A DNA stretch of 47,804 nt from an uncultured Mycoplasmatota bacterium (lineage in GTDB: Bacteria; Bacillota_I; Bacilli_A; RF39; UBA660). Positions 4,039 to 12,060 of the stretch are shown one piece after another. Below the pieces are notes generated by a model, which was not told where the DNA came from, did not search any database, and saw nothing but the letters and a program-made list of their open reading frames with translations. Location: the NCBI GenBank assembly GCA_946497955.1, contig CAMMMH010000010.1, positions 1 through 47,804 on the forward strand, in the 5' to 3' direction. Every line of letters starts with the position of its first letter. The first letter of the stretch is position 1. The translations under genes were made by a program, and so were the position numbers.

Positions 4039-5874
4039 ATGGAAAAAGATAATAAGAAGATAATAACAATAGTAATGAGCATAATAATTATATTAGTATT
4101 AGTATTAGCGATAAGTTATGCTTACTTTTCTACAGAGCTTAATGGAACAGACCAAATGGTAAAAGTAGGAACATTAGATTTAGTACTAGATGAGACAAGT
4201 GAAGGGATAACTTTAGATAATGCAGTAGGTATAAGTGATAGTGAAGGTTTATCTTTAGATGGTTCTACTTTTGAACTTAGAAATAATGGTAATAAGGCCA
4301 TAGATTATACAATATATTTAGATGATAATACTATAGGAGATAATGATACAAGAATAGATGATAAGTACTTAAAGTATAATCTAAATAAGAATGGTGCAAA
4401 TAGTGGAGCGACTTTACTAACTAGAATAGGTGCTAATCCTAATAGAATATTAGATAGTGGAACCATAGAAGGAGATACTACTAATAAATATAGTTTAAAA
4501 CTTTGGATAACAGATGAAGTAGATGGAAATTATTCAGGTCAAGTATTTAGTGGTAAGTTAAGAGTAGAAGTTAGTCAAGAAAGAGAGAAAGAAGTTGCAA
4601 CTGTATTACTTAATAATATACCAGATGATAATCTTTATGATGATGGAACAGATACCTTTATAACAGGAACTGACCCTAATAACTATATTTGGTATTCAGG
4701 AAAGTTATGGAGAGCTGTATCTGTTAATAATGAAGAAAAAACTGTTAAATTAGTGACTCAGTGGAATATAAGTACTATTTCTTATGATAATGATAGCAGT
4801 GACTTTGAAAAAAGTTACATGCAAGAATGGTTAAATGATACAACAGTAGATGGCTTTTTAGGTAATTTAAGAGATTATGAAAACTTTATTGTAACCAATG
4901 CTGAGTGGAATGCAAGTATGATGACTGATAATAGTAAGCCACCAAGTGAAATCGAAGGAGGAACAATAATAACAGATGCTGTTGGACTTTTAAATAGATA
5001 TGAATATGCAAATAGTTATCGCGGAACGACTGATAAGAATGGTTATTTGAATAATGCACTATATTCATGGCTATTAACACCATATGATTACTCTAGTATT
5101 AATTCTATTTCAGCTTCTGGTTCTATAGTTCACCCACAAAAATTAGGTATTAATGGTATACGCCCATCTATAAATTTAATATCTAATGTAAAAATAGTAA
5201 GTGGCAAGGGTACAGCAGATAATCCTTATCGTTTAAAAGGAGATAAGGATACTAGCTTAAAAGGAACGCATCTAAATACAAGATATAGTGGGGAATACAT
5301 AACTTTTGGAACAGGAGATAATAATTTATATAGAATAGTAAGTCACGAGACTGAAGGATTAACAAAAATAACAAGTGCAGAGCCTTTAAAAAATGAAGGA
5401 TCTTTTATTACAACGGCTTTTGGTAATATATTATTTTCAAGTACAAATACAATTGGATTATTTTTAAACGGAGAATATCTAATAAATTATTTAGGGGAAG
5501 AATATAGTAATATGATAGAAGATAATACAACATGGTATTTAGGATTTGGAGGTCAAGGTACAAATTATAAACTAGCCAAATATACAGATAAAAGTATGTC
5601 AGGTTATGCTACAACAACAACTGCTAAAGTAGGTTTGCTTAGAATGGGAGAATTAATGTCAGGACAATTTGGTAGATATGAAAAAAATAGTAATTACTGG
5701 TTATTAACAACGTATAATACGTCTTACGTTCTTTCTGTATTATATGCAGGAGATATGAATACCTTTATGATGTATAGTTCTGCAATTAAACCATCTCTAA
5801 ATCTTAAATCTAATGTTGTAATAACTTCTGGAGATGGGACTTTACAAAATCCATTTGAAATTGAATTAGAATAA
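4039..5874 (+). CDS. Surface protein with SipW-type signal and two C-terminal repeats
   Basis: The product is 611 aa, with ATG 4039 behind AAGGGAG. Residues 1-35 form a signal peptide or anchor: charged KDNKK, a long hydrophobic run and SYAYFS, the pattern of SipW-dependent (TasA/CalY-like) exported proteins. A beta-rich region of about 35-185 (VKVGTLDLVLDE, NNGNKAIDYTIYL) fits a camelysin/TasA-like fold. Two related domains follow, about 195-400 and 415-611. Each opens with an IWYSG or ITFGTG strand leading into a VSV or VSH segment, contains a YWLLT/YSWLLTPY motif, and closes with the matching pattern IRPSINLISNV...GKGTADNPYRL or IKPSLNLKSNV...GDGTLQNPFEI. They resemble the DUF6273 lectin-like domains found in gut Firmicutes surface proteins. 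No LPxTG motif is present. It is monocistronic, between two terminators. Confidence 0.72.
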   Translation: MEKDNKKIITIVMSIIIILVLVLAISYAYFSTELNGTDQMVKVGTLDLVLDETSEGITLDNAVGISDSEGLSLDGSTFELRNNGNKAIDYTIYLDDNTIGDNDTRIDDKYLKYNLNKNGANSGATLLTRIGANPNRILDSGTIEGDTTNKYSLKLWITDEVDGNYSGQVFSGKLRVEVSQEREKEVATVLLNNIPDDNLYDDGTDTFITGTDPNNYIWYSGKLWRAVSVNNEEKTVKLVTQWNISTISYDNDSSDFEKSYMQEWLNDTTVDGFLGNLRDYENFIVTNAEWNASMMTDNSKPPSEIEGGTIITDAVGLLNRYEYANSYRGTTDKNGYLNNALYSWLLTPYDYSSINSISASGSIVHPQKLGINGIRPSINLISNVKIVSGKGTADNPYRLKGDKDTSLKGTHLNTRYSGEYITFGTGDNNLYRIVSHETEGLTKITSAEPLKNEGSFITTAFGNILFSSTNTIGLFLNGEYLINYLGEEYSNMIEDNTTWYLGFGGQGTNYKLAKYTDKSMSGYATTTTAKVGLLRMGELMSGQFGRYEKNSNYWLLTTYNTSYVLSVLYAGDMNTFMMYSSAIKPSLNLKSNVVITSGDGTLQNPFEIELE

Positions 5875-5934: not shown

Positions 5935-5963
5935 TTTACACCACTTCTTAAATATGATAGAAT
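5935..5963 (+). promoter_or_regulatory. Promoter of the AI-2E family transporter
   Basis: TTTACA (5935-5940), a 17-bp spacer, TAGAAT (5958-5963) with an extended TG. It covers the upstream in-frame ATG at 5954, which shows that translation starts at 5984 instead. Confidence 0.72.
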
Positions 5964-5983: not shown

Positions 5984-7189
5984 ATGTTTCGTAAAAATAA
6001 TAAAAGTGATGAATTAGATTATAAAGCTATTAATAGATTCTTTTATACTTCTAATAACTTATTAAAATTTGTTCTTGCTTTAGTTATTATACTTGCTATA
6101 TTACTTGCAACTTACTTAATTAAAGAATGGAATATCTTAGGTATTATTGGAACTATTTTATCAATAATATCTCCTGTATTTATAGGATTTGTTATTGCTT
6201 GGTTACTTGACCCTCTTGCAACTAAGTTCTCTCATAAAATGCCACGTGTTTTAGCATGTATCCTAACTTATTTAATCATCTTTGGTGGTATTATTTTAAT
6301 TCTTGTTTTGACTATCCCTACATTTTCAAGTGGGGTTACTGATATAGTTTCAGTTGTTCCTGATATCGTTGATAATGCTCAAGATTTTGCAAGCGATATG
6401 TTAGAGAAATTTGGTGATAGTAAACAAGTTGATAGTTATAAAGAAACTATGCTTAATAAGATAGAAAATGTTGGTAGTGACATTGCAAGTAGTTTACCTA
6501 ATACTATTTGGAACTTTGGTAGAGGTTTTATTAGTGGAGCGACTAATATAATTTTAGGTATTATGATTGGCTTTTATCTATTATTTGATTTTCGTAAGTT
6601 TCAAGGCCATTTACTAAGTATTATGCCTAAAAGATGGCATAAGAATGCTAAAGACTTGATGAGACGTATAAATGGTAAACTTAGAAGTTATGTTATGGGT
6701 GTTTTAGCAGTTATGGTTTTAGTTTTTATTACCCAGTCTATTGGCTTTAGTTTGGCAGGACTTTCCGCTCCATTCCTATTCGCTTTATTTTGTGCCATAA
6801 CTGATGTCATTCCATATATCGGTCCTTGGATAGGTGGTGCTCCTGCTGTTATTGTTGGTTTTACCATTGATCCAATGGTAGGAGTATTTTGTTTAGTTTC
6901 AGTAGTAGTTTGCCAGTTACTTGAAAATAACTTCTATCAACCTCTAATCATGGGTAAGACTATGAAATTACATCCTGTTACAATTATGCTTGGACTCTTG
7001 CTTTTTAATTATTTCTTTGGTATGATAGGAATGATAGTTGCAACACCTGTAATCGCTACTATTAAGATAATTTTTGAATTTATTATGGAACATTCTGAAT
7101 TGGGAGCGATGTTTAACAATTATCAAGAGAATAATAAGAAAACAGTGAAGGAATTGAGTACAAAAGAGCATCTTATAGAAGAGAGTTAA
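5984..7189 (+). CDS. AI-2E family transporter
   Basis: The product is 401 aa from ATG 5984, which follows a strong AAGGAGGG site. Several hydrophobic segments are visible: two near 22-70, one near 80-105, and a cluster from about 185 to 365. The segment around residues 230-300 (VMGVLAVMVL, SAPFLFALFCAITDVIPYIGPWIGG) is the signature of the AI-2E transporter family (PF01594), as is QLLENNFYQPLIMGK. Members are membrane proteins of the cell envelope. Some export the AI-2 signal, others are Na+/H+ antiporters, so the substrate is not known here. The last 17 codons also encode the 5' half of the T-box leader for the next operon, so this gene's 3' end is under two constraints. Confidence 0.88.
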   Translation: MFRKNNKSDELDYKAINRFFYTSNNLLKFVLALVIILAILLATYLIKEWNILGIIGTILSIISPVFIGFVIAWLLDPLATKFSHKMPRVLACILTYLIIFGGIILILVLTIPTFSSGVTDIVSVVPDIVDNAQDFASDMLEKFGDSKQVDSYKETMLNKIENVGSDIASSLPNTIWNFGRGFISGATNIILGIMIGFYLLFDFRKFQGHLLSIMPKRWHKNAKDLMRRINGKLRSYVMGVLAVMVLVFITQSIGFSLAGLSAPFLFALFCAITDVIPYIGPWIGGAPAVIVGFTIDPMVGVFCLVSVVVCQLLENNFYQPLIMGKTMKLHPVTIMLGLLLFNYFFGMIGMIVATPVIATIKIIFEFIMEHSELGAMFNNYQENNKKTVKELSTKEHLIEES

Positions 7190-7319
7190 TGGTAGGTGAG
7201 AATTAACTAAGATCCTTTTGGAAAGCTAGTTCTAGAGTTTTGTAGGGATGACCTTTATCAAAATTAAGACCAAAGTAGGATGGTAACGTGTATTATACAC
7301 TCCTACAGTGGTCTTTTTT
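7139..7319 (+). promoter_or_regulatory. Alanine T-box riboswitch (alaS operon leader)
   Basis: All main T-box parts can be read. Base stem: AAAAC (7139-7143) with GTTTT (7237-7241). AGTGA motif: 7144-7148. Specifier loop: AGTA (7157-7160) opposite GAA (7221-7223), then A and the specifier GCT (7225-7227, Ala). Helices CAAAAG/CTTTTG (7161-7166, 7215-7220) and ATCTTA/TAAGAT (7170-7175, 7208-7213). Apical hairpin GTTAAT/ATTAAC (7185-7190, 7202-7207). The T-box bulge TGGT (7281-7284) is complementary to the ACCA end of a tRNA with discriminator A, as tRNA-Ala has. The competing terminator pairs GACCA, GTAGGA and GTGTA (7268-7272, 7275-7280, 7288-7292) with TACAC, TCCTAC and TGGTC (7296-7313) before a six-T run. 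Uncharged tRNA-Ala should allow read-through into 7344-12060. The leader begins inside the upstream coding sequence. Confidence 0.92.
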
Positions 7320-7343: not shown

Positions 7344-7892
7344 ATGAAGATATTTTTGTTAGCAGGTAAAGCTGGCTGTGGTAAAGATTTGCTTGGTAGT
7401 TATATGAAGACTAAATATGATTTTAAAGGTGATAGTGCTTGTATTCTTCATATAACGACACCTCTATATGAATATGCTAAAAACTATTTTAGTTGGGATG
7501 GTGATATGAGGGATAAACCAAGGGAGTTTTTACAAGAGATGGGAATTGAAGTAATTAGAAATACTTTACATAAAGATACATTTTTAGTAGATAGATTATG
7601 CGAGGATATAGATATATTAAAACATTACTTTGATGTCTTTATTATTACTGATGGTAGACTTGTTAGTGAATTTAATTTGTTAAGAGAAAGATTTCCTGAT
7701 ATTAAGATAATTCATGTAATTAGAGAAAATTATAATAATAATTTAACTGAAAAAGAGAGAAAACATATTACTGAGACAGATATGGATAATTATAAAGATT
7801 ATGATTATGTAGTTAATAATACTACTAAAGAAGAGTTATATAAAGAGGCAGATAAAATTATGGATATAGAAAGTGGGGTCGAATATTTATGA
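7344..7892 (+). CDS. P-loop nucleotide kinase-like protein
   Basis: The product is 182 aa. It starts with a Walker A motif, GKAGCGKD (8-15), in which Asp takes the place of the usual Ser/Thr after the Lys, as in some deoxynucleoside monophosphate kinases of phage type. A region at about 45-75 (SWDGDMRDKPREFLQEMG) resembles the substrate lid of that group. VFIITDGRL near 110 fits a Walker B-like strand, and IIHVIREN follows. The substrate cannot be told from sequence. It is the first gene after the alanine T-box, with AGGAG (7331-7335) about 8 bases before ATG 7344, and it overlaps the next gene by ATGA. Confidence 0.72.
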   Translation: MKIFLLAGKAGCGKDLLGSYMKTKYDFKGDSACILHITTPLYEYAKNYFSWDGDMRDKPREFLQEMGIEVIRNTLHKDTFLVDRLCEDIDILKHYFDVFIITDGRLVSEFNLLRERFPDIKIIHVIRENYNNNLTEKERKHITETDMDNYKDYDYVVNNTTKEELYKEADKIMDIESGVEYL

Positions 7893-8446
7893 AAAAACTA
7901 ATCGCAGTCGTTGGTATGAGTGGAACAGGTAAGAGCGTTGCAACCACTTACTTAGAAGACCAAGGTTATAAGAAGATATACTTTGGAGGAGTAATTTATG
8001 ATAAGATGAAAGAAGCAGGTATAGAGATTACTCCTGATAGTCAAAAAGAGTTTAGAGAAAATTTAAGAAAAGAGCATGGTATGGGAGTAGTTGCCAAGAT
8101 ACTCCTTCCTAAGATAAGTGATGCTTATAGTATAGGAGATACGGTTTTAGATGGACTTTATTCTTGGGATGAATATTTAATTCTTAAAGAAAGATTTAAA
8201 GATTTAAAGTTAATTTGTGTTTGCACAGATAAGAAAATTAGATATAATAGAGTTGAGTCAAGACCAGATAGACCTTTTAATCATGAAGATATTATTAAAA
8301 GAGATGTTGCCGAGATAGAAAACTCTGCTAAAGGTGGTCCTATTGCCTTTGCGGATTATTATATCTTAAATAATGGAGATCTTAATAGTTTTTATAAGAG
8401 ATTAGAAGAAATACTTAAAGATATAGAACAAGAAGGAGAGAAGTAA
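7889..8446 (+). CDS. AAA-type kinase, UPF0200/dephospho-CoA-kinase-like
   Basis: The product is 185 aa with Walker A GMSGTGKS (9-16). The order of motifs follows the UPF0200 group of predicted nucleotide kinases, best known from archaea: FGGVIYDKMKEAGIEITPDSQ (31-51), RKEHGMGVVAKILLPKI, VLDGLYSWDEY (a Walker B-like strand), an Arg-rich RYNRVESR lid and FADYYILNNGDL near the C-terminus. These proteins resemble dephospho-CoA and adenylate kinases, but their substrate is not established. It overlaps the preceding kinase gene by 4 bp and ends one base before alaS, so it is under the same T-box. It is not the usual coaE. Confidence 0.75.
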   Translation: MKKLIAVVGMSGTGKSVATTYLEDQGYKKIYFGGVIYDKMKEAGIEITPDSQKEFRENLRKEHGMGVVAKILLPKISDAYSIGDTVLDGLYSWDEYLILKERFKDLKLICVCTDKKIRYNRVESRPDRPFNHEDIIKRDVAEIENSAKGGPIAFADYYILNNGDLNSFYKRLEEILKDIEQEGEK

Positions 8447-8447
8447 T

Positions 8448-11138
8448 ATGAGATATATGACTAGTAATGAAATAAGAAAGATGTGGATTAAATATTTTGA
8501 AGAACACGGACATAAATATGTTAAGTCAGCCCCATTAATTCCTATTAATGATGATTCACTGCTTTGGATTAATGCCGGGGTTACACCTTTAAAAAAATAC
8601 TTTGATGGTACTGTTACACCAGAGTCTAGAAGAATTGTTAATATTCAAAAATGTATTAGAACTAATGATATAGAAAATGTAGGAGTTACTAAAAGACATC
8701 ATACATTCTTTGAGATGATGGGTAACTTTTCTATTGGTGATTATTTTAAAGATGAAGCGATAGAGTTTGCATATGAACTTTTAACTAGTAAAGATTGGTT
8801 TGATATACCTCTTGATAAACTTTATGTAACAGTCTATACAAACGATGCTGATGCCTATAATAAATGGGTTGAATTAGGTATGCCAAAAGACCATATTATT
8901 AAATTAGAAGGTAATTTCTGGGAAATAGGAGAAGGCCCATGTGGTCCTGATAGCGAGATATTCTATGATCAAGGTGAGAAGCTAGATCCTAATGGTGATG
9001 CTTGGGAAAAGTTTATTCATGATGAAGATCAAGACCGTTATGTTGAGATTTGGAATAACGTCTTTAGTCAATTTAACTCTAAACCAGGTGTTCCTCGTGA
9101 GAAGTATCAAGAACTTCCCCATAAAAATATTGATACAGGTGCAGGACTAGAAAGATGGGCCTGTATCTTCCAAGGTGTTGAATCTAACTTTGAGACTGAT
9201 CTATTTAAACCAATTATAGAGAAAATAGAAGAGTTAAGTGGCGTTTTATATAATGGAGAAGTAGCCTTTAAAGTAATAGCAGACCATATGAAAGCGGTAA
9301 CATTTGCGATAAGTGATGGGGCAAGCTTTGGAAATACTGGTAGAGACTATGTCTTAAGACGTTTAGTAAGACGTAGTGTTAGATTTGGTAGAACTTTAGG
9401 ATTTAGTGAACCATTCCTTTATAAACTAGTTCCTACTATCGTTAATGTAATGGGAGAAGCATATCCTGAATTAAAACAAAATTCTGGTGAAGTTGCAGTA
9501 TACATATTAGATGAAGAGAAATTATTCTTTAATACTCTAGAAGATGGAGAAAGACGTCTAAAAGAGATTATGAGTGATGATAATGATAAAGTAATTAGTG
9601 GTTATGATGCTTTTAGATTATATGATACTTATGGATTCCCATTAGAACTTACAGAAGAGATTGCAAATGAAAATGGGTATACTGTTAATGAACAAGAATT
9701 TAATGATTATATGGCTAAACAAAAGGAACTTGCTAAGAAAAATTCTCGTTCTAAGACATCTATGGCTAGTCAAAAGAAAGTCTTAATGGACTTTACTAAA
9801 CCATCAACCTTTGTTTATGGGCTATATCGCCTAAAGAGTAGTGTTCTTGCTATTGTTAGTAAAGATAAGTTAGAGAAATCTCTTGATCACTCTGGATATA
9901 TCATTTTAAAGAGAACCTGCTTCTACTCTGAGTCTGGTGGTCAAGTATCTGATACAGGTATGATTGTAGGTAAGAACTTTAAAGCAAGAGTAGTTGATGT
10001 TTTCAAAGGACCTAATGGACAACATATTCATAAGATAAAACTTTTAGATGGTATAATTCATGTTAATGATGAAGTTGAAGTAATAATAGATAAGCAAAGA
10101 AGAAAAGAGATTGAGGCAAATCACTCTAGTGTACATATCTTACAATATGCTCTACAACAAGTAGTTGATAAAAATATTAGACAAGCAGGTAGTTATGTAG
10201 ATGAAGAGAAACTTAGATTTGACTTTACTTGTCCATCTAAAATTAGTGATGAAGAGATAGTTAAAACAGAAGATTTTGTCAATAATATAATCAAAAAACA
10301 CGTCATAACATCTACTGAGACTATGCCACTTGATAAAGCGAAAGAATTAGGAGCGATGGCTTTATTCGGTGAGAAGTATGGTAGTACGGTTAGAGTTGTT
10401 AAAATAGATAAATCTATTGAACTTTGTGGTGGTACTCATGTTGCAAATACTAAAGATATAGGTAAGTTTGCCATCTTTAACTTTGAATCTAAAGGAAGTA
10501 ATACCTATAGAATAGAGGCAGTTACTGGTAATAGATTAGAGAATACTTTATTTGAAGTAATTAAACCTTATAATGATGAGATGGTTAAACTATTAATAAA
10601 AGCGAAAGAAATCCTTGCTCTTGCTAAAAGACAAAATATTAATTTAGATTTTGATGTCGAAATAGATAATAGTGCTCCAACTTCTTATAAAGATATTATC
10701 TATAATCAAAATGAACTTTCTTATGTTCAAAGTGAAGTTAAAACCTTAGAGAAGACTTATAATAATGAAGTAGAGAAGTTAACTTTATCAAGCTTAGATG
10801 CTTATCTTTCTAGAGTAAAAGAAATTGGTGGTAAGAAATTATTATACTTAGAACTTGATAATATCGAGATGTTCTTAGTAAAAGCCATGGCTGATAATTT
10901 ATGTAATAAATTTGATGAAGTAGTAGTTTTACTTGCTAATATTAAAGAAGATAATAGTGTTAACTTTATCTGTCGTAGTTCTATACCATCAGTTAATGCT
11001 GGATTTGTTGTAAAAAGTATTACAACTGCCTTTAATGGTAATGGAGGAGGTAGTCCTACATTTGCCCAAGGTGGTATTAAAGATAAGAGTCATTTAAAAG
11101 AGATAAAAAGTGCAGTAGAGGACTTAATTAATGAATAG
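8448..11138 (+). CDS. alaS: Alanine--tRNA ligase
   Basis: The product is 896 aa, close to the usual 870-900. The class II catalytic domain (about 1-240) has the RxxF-type motif region and KCIRTNDIENVG, HHTFFEMMGNFSIGDYF and the GAGLERW motif. The tRNA recognition domain follows to about 460. The editing domain has its metal-binding HSSVH (about 558-562) and CGGTH (about 659-663), so mischarged Ser- and Gly-tRNA-Ala should be cleared. The C-terminal DHHA1-like domain ends with GGGSPTFAQGG. It attaches Ala to tRNA-Ala in the cytosol. The start is ATG 8448, 7 bases after AAGGAG. Regulation by the T-box at 7139-7319, with a GCU specifier, matches the product. Confidence 0.98.
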   Translation: MRYMTSNEIRKMWIKYFEEHGHKYVKSAPLIPINDDSLLWINAGVTPLKKYFDGTVTPESRRIVNIQKCIRTNDIENVGVTKRHHTFFEMMGNFSIGDYFKDEAIEFAYELLTSKDWFDIPLDKLYVTVYTNDADAYNKWVELGMPKDHIIKLEGNFWEIGEGPCGPDSEIFYDQGEKLDPNGDAWEKFIHDEDQDRYVEIWNNVFSQFNSKPGVPREKYQELPHKNIDTGAGLERWACIFQGVESNFETDLFKPIIEKIEELSGVLYNGEVAFKVIADHMKAVTFAISDGASFGNTGRDYVLRRLVRRSVRFGRTLGFSEPFLYKLVPTIVNVMGEAYPELKQNSGEVAVYILDEEKLFFNTLEDGERRLKEIMSDDNDKVISGYDAFRLYDTYGFPLELTEEIANENGYTVNEQEFNDYMAKQKELAKKNSRSKTSMASQKKVLMDFTKPSTFVYGLYRLKSSVLAIVSKDKLEKSLDHSGYIILKRTCFYSESGGQVSDTGMIVGKNFKARVVDVFKGPNGQHIHKIKLLDGIIHVNDEVEVIIDKQRRKEIEANHSSVHILQYALQQVVDKNIRQAGSYVDEEKLRFDFTCPSKISDEEIVKTEDFVNNIIKKHVITSTETMPLDKAKELGAMALFGEKYGSTVRVVKIDKSIELCGGTHVANTKDIGKFAIFNFESKGSNTYRIEAVTGNRLENTLFEVIKPYNDEMVKLLIKAKEILALAKRQNINLDFDVEIDNSAPTSYKDIIYNQNELSYVQSEVKTLEKTYNNEVEKLTLSSLDAYLSRVKEIGGKKLLYLELDNIEMFLVKAMADNLCNKFDEVVVLLANIKEDNSVNFICRSSIPSVNAGFVVKSITTAFNGNGGGSPTFAQGGIKDKSHLKEIKSAVEDLINE

Positions 11139-12060
11139 TTATTTAATTAAAAGCAATGCTATTAGTCTTATAGATAAAAAAATAGATGAATTAATTAAAG
11201 AGTTAGGCTTTAATGATGCTAGCATTACTACTTATGACTTAGAAGAAGATAGTATTACTTCTTTAATAGAAGATGCTGATACTATCTCTTTTCTAACACC
11301 AAGTAAGGTAATAATAGGTAAAAATCTATCTAATAATAATCTAGATGATAAAAACATTAAAACCTTATCTAAATACTTAGATAATCCTAATAGTGATGTT
11401 TTATTAATCTTTGTAACTACTAATATAGATACAAGAAAGAAAAGTATTAAAGAAGTTATCAATAAACTTTCTTTAGTTAATATTAGTACAGATACAAAAA
11501 GCATAGTTAAAGACATATTAAAAGGCTATGATGTAGAATATAGAGTTATTAATCTATTAGATGAATATTATAAAGATGATTTAGAAAGACTTATTAGTGA
11601 GACTAAAAAACTAGCTTTAGCATTTATAAACACTAAGAAAATTACCTATAAAGAGGCCTTTGATTTACTAGTTAAACCTCTAAATAAACAGGATACCCTT
11701 GCTTTTGACCTAGTACGTGAGATAGCTTTAAAAGATAAGAAGAAAGCTTTAAATATTTATAATGAACTACTTAGTTATAATATCGAAAGTTATGCTTTAT
11801 TTGGACTATTAGAAAGTCAGTATAGACTACTTTATCAAGTAAAAGTCTTAAATAAAAGAAATATCTCCTATAACGATATGGCAAGTATTTTAGAAGTACA
11901 TCCTTTTAGAGTTAAGAAGACTTTAGAACTAGTTAGATATTATACCTTAAAAGAAATAAGAAAACTCCTTAAAAATCTTGCTGATATCGATTATAAAATT
12001 AAAAGTGGTATCTATGAAAATAATATAATTATAGATTTGTTAATATTAAATATTAAATAA
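11131..12060 (+). CDS. holA: DNA polymerase III subunit delta
   Basis: The product is 309 aa. It matches the HolA pattern for Firmicutes: an N-terminal AAA+-like region lacking a functional Walker A (MNSYLIKSNAISLIDKKIDELI), a strand with ADTISFLTPSKVIIGKNL (about 49-66), a helical middle domain (LDEYYKDDLERLISETKKLALAF) and a C-terminal collar domain with LFGLLESQYRLLYQVKVL and MASILEVHPFRVKKTLE. Delta opens the beta clamp within the clamp loader. It overlaps alaS by 8 bp, so its translation is probably coupled. Placing a replication gene under an alanine T-box is unusual. In relatives rpsT often lies nearby, but it is absent here. Confidence 0.9.
   Translation: MNSYLIKSNAISLIDKKIDELIKELGFNDASITTYDLEEDSITSLIEDADTISFLTPSKVIIGKNLSNNNLDDKNIKTLSKYLDNPNSDVLLIFVTTNIDTRKKSIKEVINKLSLVNISTDTKSIVKDILKGYDVEYRVINLLDEYYKDDLERLISETKKLALAFINTKKITYKEAFDLLVKPLNKQDTLAFDLVREIALKDKKKALNIYNELLSYNIESYALFGLLESQYRLLYQVKVLNKRNISYNDMASILEVHPFRVKKTLELVRYYTLKEIRKLLKNLADIDYKIKSGIYENNIIIDLLILNIK

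Follow-up and report, generated by a model that had tools for sequence, protein, structure and literature searches.

The window (the whole stretch of DNA that was analysed, 47,804 nt) contains an AI-2E family transporter gene followed on the same strand by two small kinase genes, alaS and a holA-like gene, and an alanine T-box lies at the junction, with the first half of its Stem I inside the transporter gene (Table 1). The transporter ORF is open from 5954, and the ATG at 5984 is preceded by an AGGAGG ribosome-binding site. An ORF of 611 residues (4039-5874) lies further upstream; it has a membrane segment at its N terminus, matches no Pfam family and may encode a surface protein. Downstream, the dNMP-kinase-like gene and the second P-loop kinase gene (together 7344-8446) precede alaS in an order that is kept in many relatives, and neither has an obvious link to alanine. 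The transporter stop codon also overlaps an ATG (TAATG, 7189-7191), which opens a frame of only five codons.

Table 1. Features of the transporter-alaS region, in coordinates of the window.
Feature	Position	Strand	Evidence or remark
Promoter-like site upstream of the transporter, TTTACA-N17-TAGAAT, extended -10	5935-5963	+	Motif scan
AI-2E family transporter gene	5984-7189	+	PF01594, 8.6e-59
Candidate intragenic sigma-A-type promoter	6998-7026	+	Synonymous constraint; cross-genus T-box association; codon-column test
Elements of the candidate promoter	-35 TTGCTT 6998-7003; 17-nt spacer; TG 7018-7019; -10 TATGAT 7021-7026	+	
Stem I	7139-7241	+	Rfam alignment; pairing in 98.3% of cells, both sides changed in 8 pairs
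Stem I helices	7139-7143/7237-7241 (base), 7150-7153/7230-7233, 7161-7166/7215-7220	+	Rfam alignment
Stem I helices, upper	7170-7175/7208-7213, 7185-7190/7202-7207 (apical stem)	+	Rfam alignment
5' half of Stem I, formed by the transporter's last 16 sense codons and stop (51-nt overlap)	7139-7189	+	
AGTGA motif (GA motif)	7144-7148	+	
AGTA, 5' side of specifier loop	7157-7160	+	
Transporter stop TAA, in 5' arm of apical stem (GAGAGTTAA)	7187-7189	+	GAGAGTTAA in 28/29 species, GAGAATTAA in one
Specifier GCU (alanine)	7225-7227	+	Within GGAAAGCTAG at 7220; matches known alaS T-boxes (PMC4695836)
Short Stem III, AGG/CCU	7244-7254	+	Rfam alignment; GGG/CCC in several relatives
Antiterminator/terminator region, U run at end	7266-7319	+	Fold -20.3 kcal/mol, z -4.3
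UGGU bulge of antiterminator, complementary to tRNA end	7281-7284	+	As in known alaS T-boxes
Deoxynucleotide-monophosphate-kinase-like, first gene of T-box operon	7344-7892	+	PF21448, 4.5e-10
P-loop kinase (AAA_18), second gene of T-box operon	7889-8446	+	PF13238, 9.3e-9
alaS, alanyl-tRNA synthetase, T-box target	8448-11138	+	PF01411, 2.4e-183
holA-like, DNA polymerase III delta subunit	11131-12060	+	PF21694/PF06144

A first-pass annotation had proposed an alanine T-box here, to be checked by an RNA family search, and the proposal is confirmed. In the 601 nt searched, RF00230 matches positions 7136-7307 of the plus strand over the full model (1-219) with 80.9 bits and an E-value of 6e-18, a score below the curated Rfam gathering cut-off of 93 bits, which is why a default scan returns nothing at the locus. 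The genome holds eight T-boxes by the same model, scoring between 57 and 139 bits, of which the alaS-operon T-box is one. Despite the score, the sequence features settle the identity of the element as an alanine-specific T-box: the GCU specifier, which agrees with the presence of alaS in the regulated operon and is replaced by GCA in a few relatives, the UGGU bulge, and the motifs AGAGAG and GGTAGGTGAGA, which flank the apical stem and correspond to the AG bulge and the GGUG apical motif of T-box Stem I. Neither a Stem II nor a pseudoknot could be aligned, the model positions for both being empty in the Rfam alignment of the element. A strong 3' hairpin with a U run is also present, but its predicted fold contains the antiterminator helix and does not exclude it. 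The terminator thus seems to enclose the antiterminator element rather than to compete with it for one strand, with an outer stem AAGACCA/TGGUCUU around an inner stem that carries the UGGU bulge, and further T-boxes of this genome, as well as some in other genera, have a similar layout.

The annotation had also placed the base stem, AGTGA and AGTA within the transporter's last 17 codons, with the stop codon in the apical hairpin, and these positions agree well with the alignment. The UAA that ends the transporter frame is part of the T-box. This arrangement extends across the genus: this transporter is present in 33 of 35 genomes of 'Candidatus Onthousia' (named close records include 'Candidatus Onthousia faecipullorum'), and exactly the same overlap is found in 29 of these 33, counted as species-level genomes. 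The identical overlap and stop position in 29 species, together with compensatory changes in the stem, argue against a chance coincidence. The remaining four transporter-bearing genomes lack the T-box, and their transporter ends about 20-45 nt before the kinase gene; these four genus members have lost the alaS T-box and kept the transporter-kinase neighbourhood. Alanine codons just upstream of Stem I were considered as a stalling signal and set aside, since the Ala in ELGAM is not conserved.

Elsewhere in the family, too, a T-box comes after this transporter, at distances that vary between genera. By nhmmer placement, Stem I begins 44 nt before the transporter stop in 3 loci, 10-23 nt before it in 13, no more than about 20 nt from it in most of the remaining loci and 31-143 nt beyond it in 14. 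Overlap depth in related genera spans 0-44 nt, and the 51-nt overlap thus marks one position along a gradient of compaction. Where T-box and transporter overlap, the stop codon often comes from T-box motifs, as UAA in AAGUAA, UAG in UAGAGAG or UAA in GAGAGUUAA. Three other genera have deep overlaps of about 44 nt in which another reading frame is used and the UAGAGAG of the T-box provides the UAG stop codon.

How the shared segment evolves can be read from the 29 sequences. Thermodynamic folding of Stem I alone is uninformative (z 0.62), so support for the stem has to come from covariation. In the alignment, 98.3% of the cells of proposed pairs can pair, and 8 pairs have changed on both sides, against 2.8 expected from shuffles and 2-5 in slid versions; in the helix 7170-7175/7208-7213, five of the six pairs are compensated although the 5' strand sits in codons. 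The amino acids change along with the pairing partner, for example CAT to AGT with TAAGAT to TAAGAC. Furthermore, pN/pS of the overlap tail is 0.48 in the close set and 0.69 in all 29, compared with 0.18 and 0.24 in the gene core, and third codon positions evolve no faster than first positions, so that codon periodicity is lost. These three lines of evidence (pN/pS, covariation and lost periodicity) lead us to conclude from the alignment that the tail evolves mainly as RNA. The reading frame is nevertheless kept, because the overlap is free of indels in the 29 species at 68% identity; the 3' half of Stem I has several, and as a control, three of four T-box classes from these genomes differ in length even at 88-96% identity. 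The earlier suggestion of joint coding and RNA-structure constraint thus holds for the RNA structure and for the frame and its length, but constraint on the amino acids is loose, and the residues track the helices. The third positions of the last 17 codons, which had been proposed for comparison among relatives, evolve in an RNA-like manner.

The annotation had further supposed that the leader works only on transcripts started near or inside the end of the gene, or when translation of that gene is low. A sigma-A-type promoter directly precedes the other T-boxes of these genomes (median score 11.2, n=63), and the 100 nt upstream of the transporter starts also score well (median 9.0 compared with 5.5 for the null, 28 species); the score uses approximate base frequencies that we set ourselves and is untrained. 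In the 100 nt before Stem I of the alaS T-box there is no promoter (median 4.6, below the null of 5.5), and a promoter beside Stem I within the coding end was rejected on this ground. A scan of 300 nt found, in nearly all species and about 112 nt before Stem I, TTG[CA]TT-N17-TATGAT with an extended -10 and hexamers whose spacing falls within the 16-18 nt of sigma-A-type promoters; the form TTG[CA]TT-N17-TGGTATGAT is present in all 29 genus members with the T-box. The simple scan had missed this site because its -35, TTGCTT, matches the consensus at only three of six bases, and the case for a promoter therefore rests on conservation and on the extended -10. The site is written into a conserved L-x-F-x-x-F-F-G-x-I-G protein motif, and the codons at 6998-7042 show, out of 390, the highest synonymous constraint in the transporter gene. 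A transcript from the candidate promoter is predicted to start near 7033. Starts inside the gene thus receive comparative support; the word 'only' is not borne out, the transporter having a conserved promoter of its own.

For the comparison with other genera, we define a strict site as TTG plus TATNAT, and an abutting T-box as one that starts within 25 nt of the transporter stop. The strict site occurs in 35 of 52 other-genus loci with an abutting T-box, in none of the 14 with a T-box farther away and in 4 of 72 loci without a T-box adjoining the transporter, three of these four being genus members that have lost theirs (overall, 35/52 abutting and 4/86 otherwise; the motif search and this test used overlapping sets of loci, and the genomes compared are mostly metagenome assemblies). 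About 11 abutting loci are without a good intragenic site. To control for shared ancestry and codon bias, each of 61 usable codon columns at the end of the gene was then compared with the presence of an abutting T-box, in a test that is independent of the promoter score, though the position of the motif was found with it. Two columns stand out, namely the codon with the G of the -35 (TTG in 43/52 abutting loci and 12/83 others, p 1e-15) and that with the first T of the -10 (GGT in 47/52 and 35/84, p 8e-9), the next column having p 0.005. This test over all columns replaced a phylogenetic pair test with too few supported pairs: on a weakly supported short-protein tree of the related loci, five independent pairs gave two that agree and none that oppose, which is not significant. 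The AI-2E paralogue of the same genomes was unusable as a codon control, being too divergent at the motif. Taken together, the intragenic promoter-like site tracks T-boxes abutting the gene across genera. Its retention in at least three of the four genus members without a T-box fits a promoter of the downstream genes.

The best explanation, and one that we consider likely on this comparative evidence, is thus an alanine T-box that has lost the gap to its neighbour and whose main leader starts inside the transporter gene. The T-box would be a transcription-terminating, alanine-specific regulator of the operon of two small kinases, alaS and holA. The gap to the transporter gene has been lost, and the transporter frame runs through the 5' half of Stem I. 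Going by the T-box class, accumulating uncharged tRNA-Ala would pair with both the GCU specifier and the UGGU bulge, allowing transcription to continue into the operon; without it, the hairpin ending at 7319 would terminate transcription. The main leader transcript probably starts at the sigma-A-type site within the gene and would have, ahead of Stem I, about 106 nt of transporter sequence that is not translated. Transcripts that begin at the promoter of the transporter may also reach the T-box, which would then act as their regulated terminator, and read-through transcripts of this kind are likely because that promoter is conserved.

A different account dispenses with the internal promoter altogether: the T-box would be an operon-internal attenuator acting on transcripts that begin upstream of the transporter, and the constraint at 6998-7042 would reflect RNA structure, ribosome pausing or a protein-binding site. 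The conserved promoter upstream of the transporter and the poor -35 speak for it, as does the spacer, which within the genus is conserved as well, beyond what a promoter needs. Across genera, on the other hand, only the codons with the -35 G and the first -10 T stand out, both track the loss of promoter space beside the T-box, and most of the 14 farther T-boxes, none of which is accompanied by the internal site, have a promoter in the gap. We consider this account improbable. Far less probable still is that the shared segment is kept mainly as protein, with a 16-residue tail that functions in the transporter and an RNA that adapts to it. The absence of indels from the overlap, when the 3' half of Stem I has several and three of four control classes vary, is what such a tail would predict, but a pN/pS two to three times that of the core, the lost periodicity and the substitutions that follow the pairing partner do not agree with it, and in most other genera the protein ends before Stem I.

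Translation itself could also decide which transcripts respond. Ribosomes on the transporter would keep Stem I open on long transcripts, which would then always terminate, and only internally started leaders would read tRNA-Ala. The geometry speaks for such gating, because with the stop in the apical stem ribosomes pass through all of the 5' half; yet the stop also lies 130 nt before the end of the terminator, and a coupled ribosome could already be gone by the time the decision is made. Furthermore, RNA polymerase outruns ribosomes in Bacillus subtilis (reviewed in PMC7858274), and under such conditions Stem I could be folded by the time a ribosome reaches it. Gating of this kind seems unlikely to us. 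Were it true, the transporter promoter would never feed alaS, only ribosome-free leaders from the intragenic promoter would read tRNA-Ala, and the overlap would be maintained by selection as an insulator and not be simply a product of compaction.

The alaS T-boxes of B. subtilis and Clostridium acetobutylicum (PMC4695836) have a GCU specifier and a UGGU bulge and control alaS by transcription termination. The element described here has the specifier and the bulge in common with them, along with the GA motif and the AG bulge, and would likewise control alaS by termination, but it differs in having Stem I inside an upstream coding sequence, no alignable Stem II or pseudoknot, two kinase genes before alaS and a putative promoter about 110 nt upstream inside a gene. 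The glyQS-type T-boxes described in PMC4695836 also do without Stem II, passing almost directly from Stem I to a short Stem III and the antiterminator as here; they respond to glycine instead of alanine, and an overlap with an upstream gene is not described for them there. The LysRS riboswitch of Listeria, located between lmo0799 and lmo0798, can also terminate the transcript of the upstream gene (PMC8079631), a role proposed here for the T-box; its aptamer binds lysine and not tRNA, and sequence shared with the upstream coding region is not described there. Like other intragenic bacterial promoters, the candidate site would feed a downstream gene from within coding sequence; here it would feed a T-box leader, and its retention seems to have preserved synonymous codons in many genera.

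T-boxes are usually presented as leaders that occupy non-coding 5' regions, and in the literature searched, of which coverage was partial, we found no report of one overlapping an upstream coding sequence. The present case is thus a known riboswitch class in an unusual position; its new part is the promoter-like site inside the transporter gene, kept by codon choices that many related gut bacteria have in common, which suggests where the leader may start. In a whole genus, the ligand-binding stem of a T-box coincides in part with the end of a neighbouring gene, and the conserved motifs of the T-box provide that gene's stop codon, with other depths of overlap in further genera. The promoter-like site in the neighbouring gene would mean that a regulatory role can preserve synonymous codons over long evolutionary times, and the arrangement gives a testable prediction of how a single stretch of RNA can serve both ribosomes and a riboswitch.
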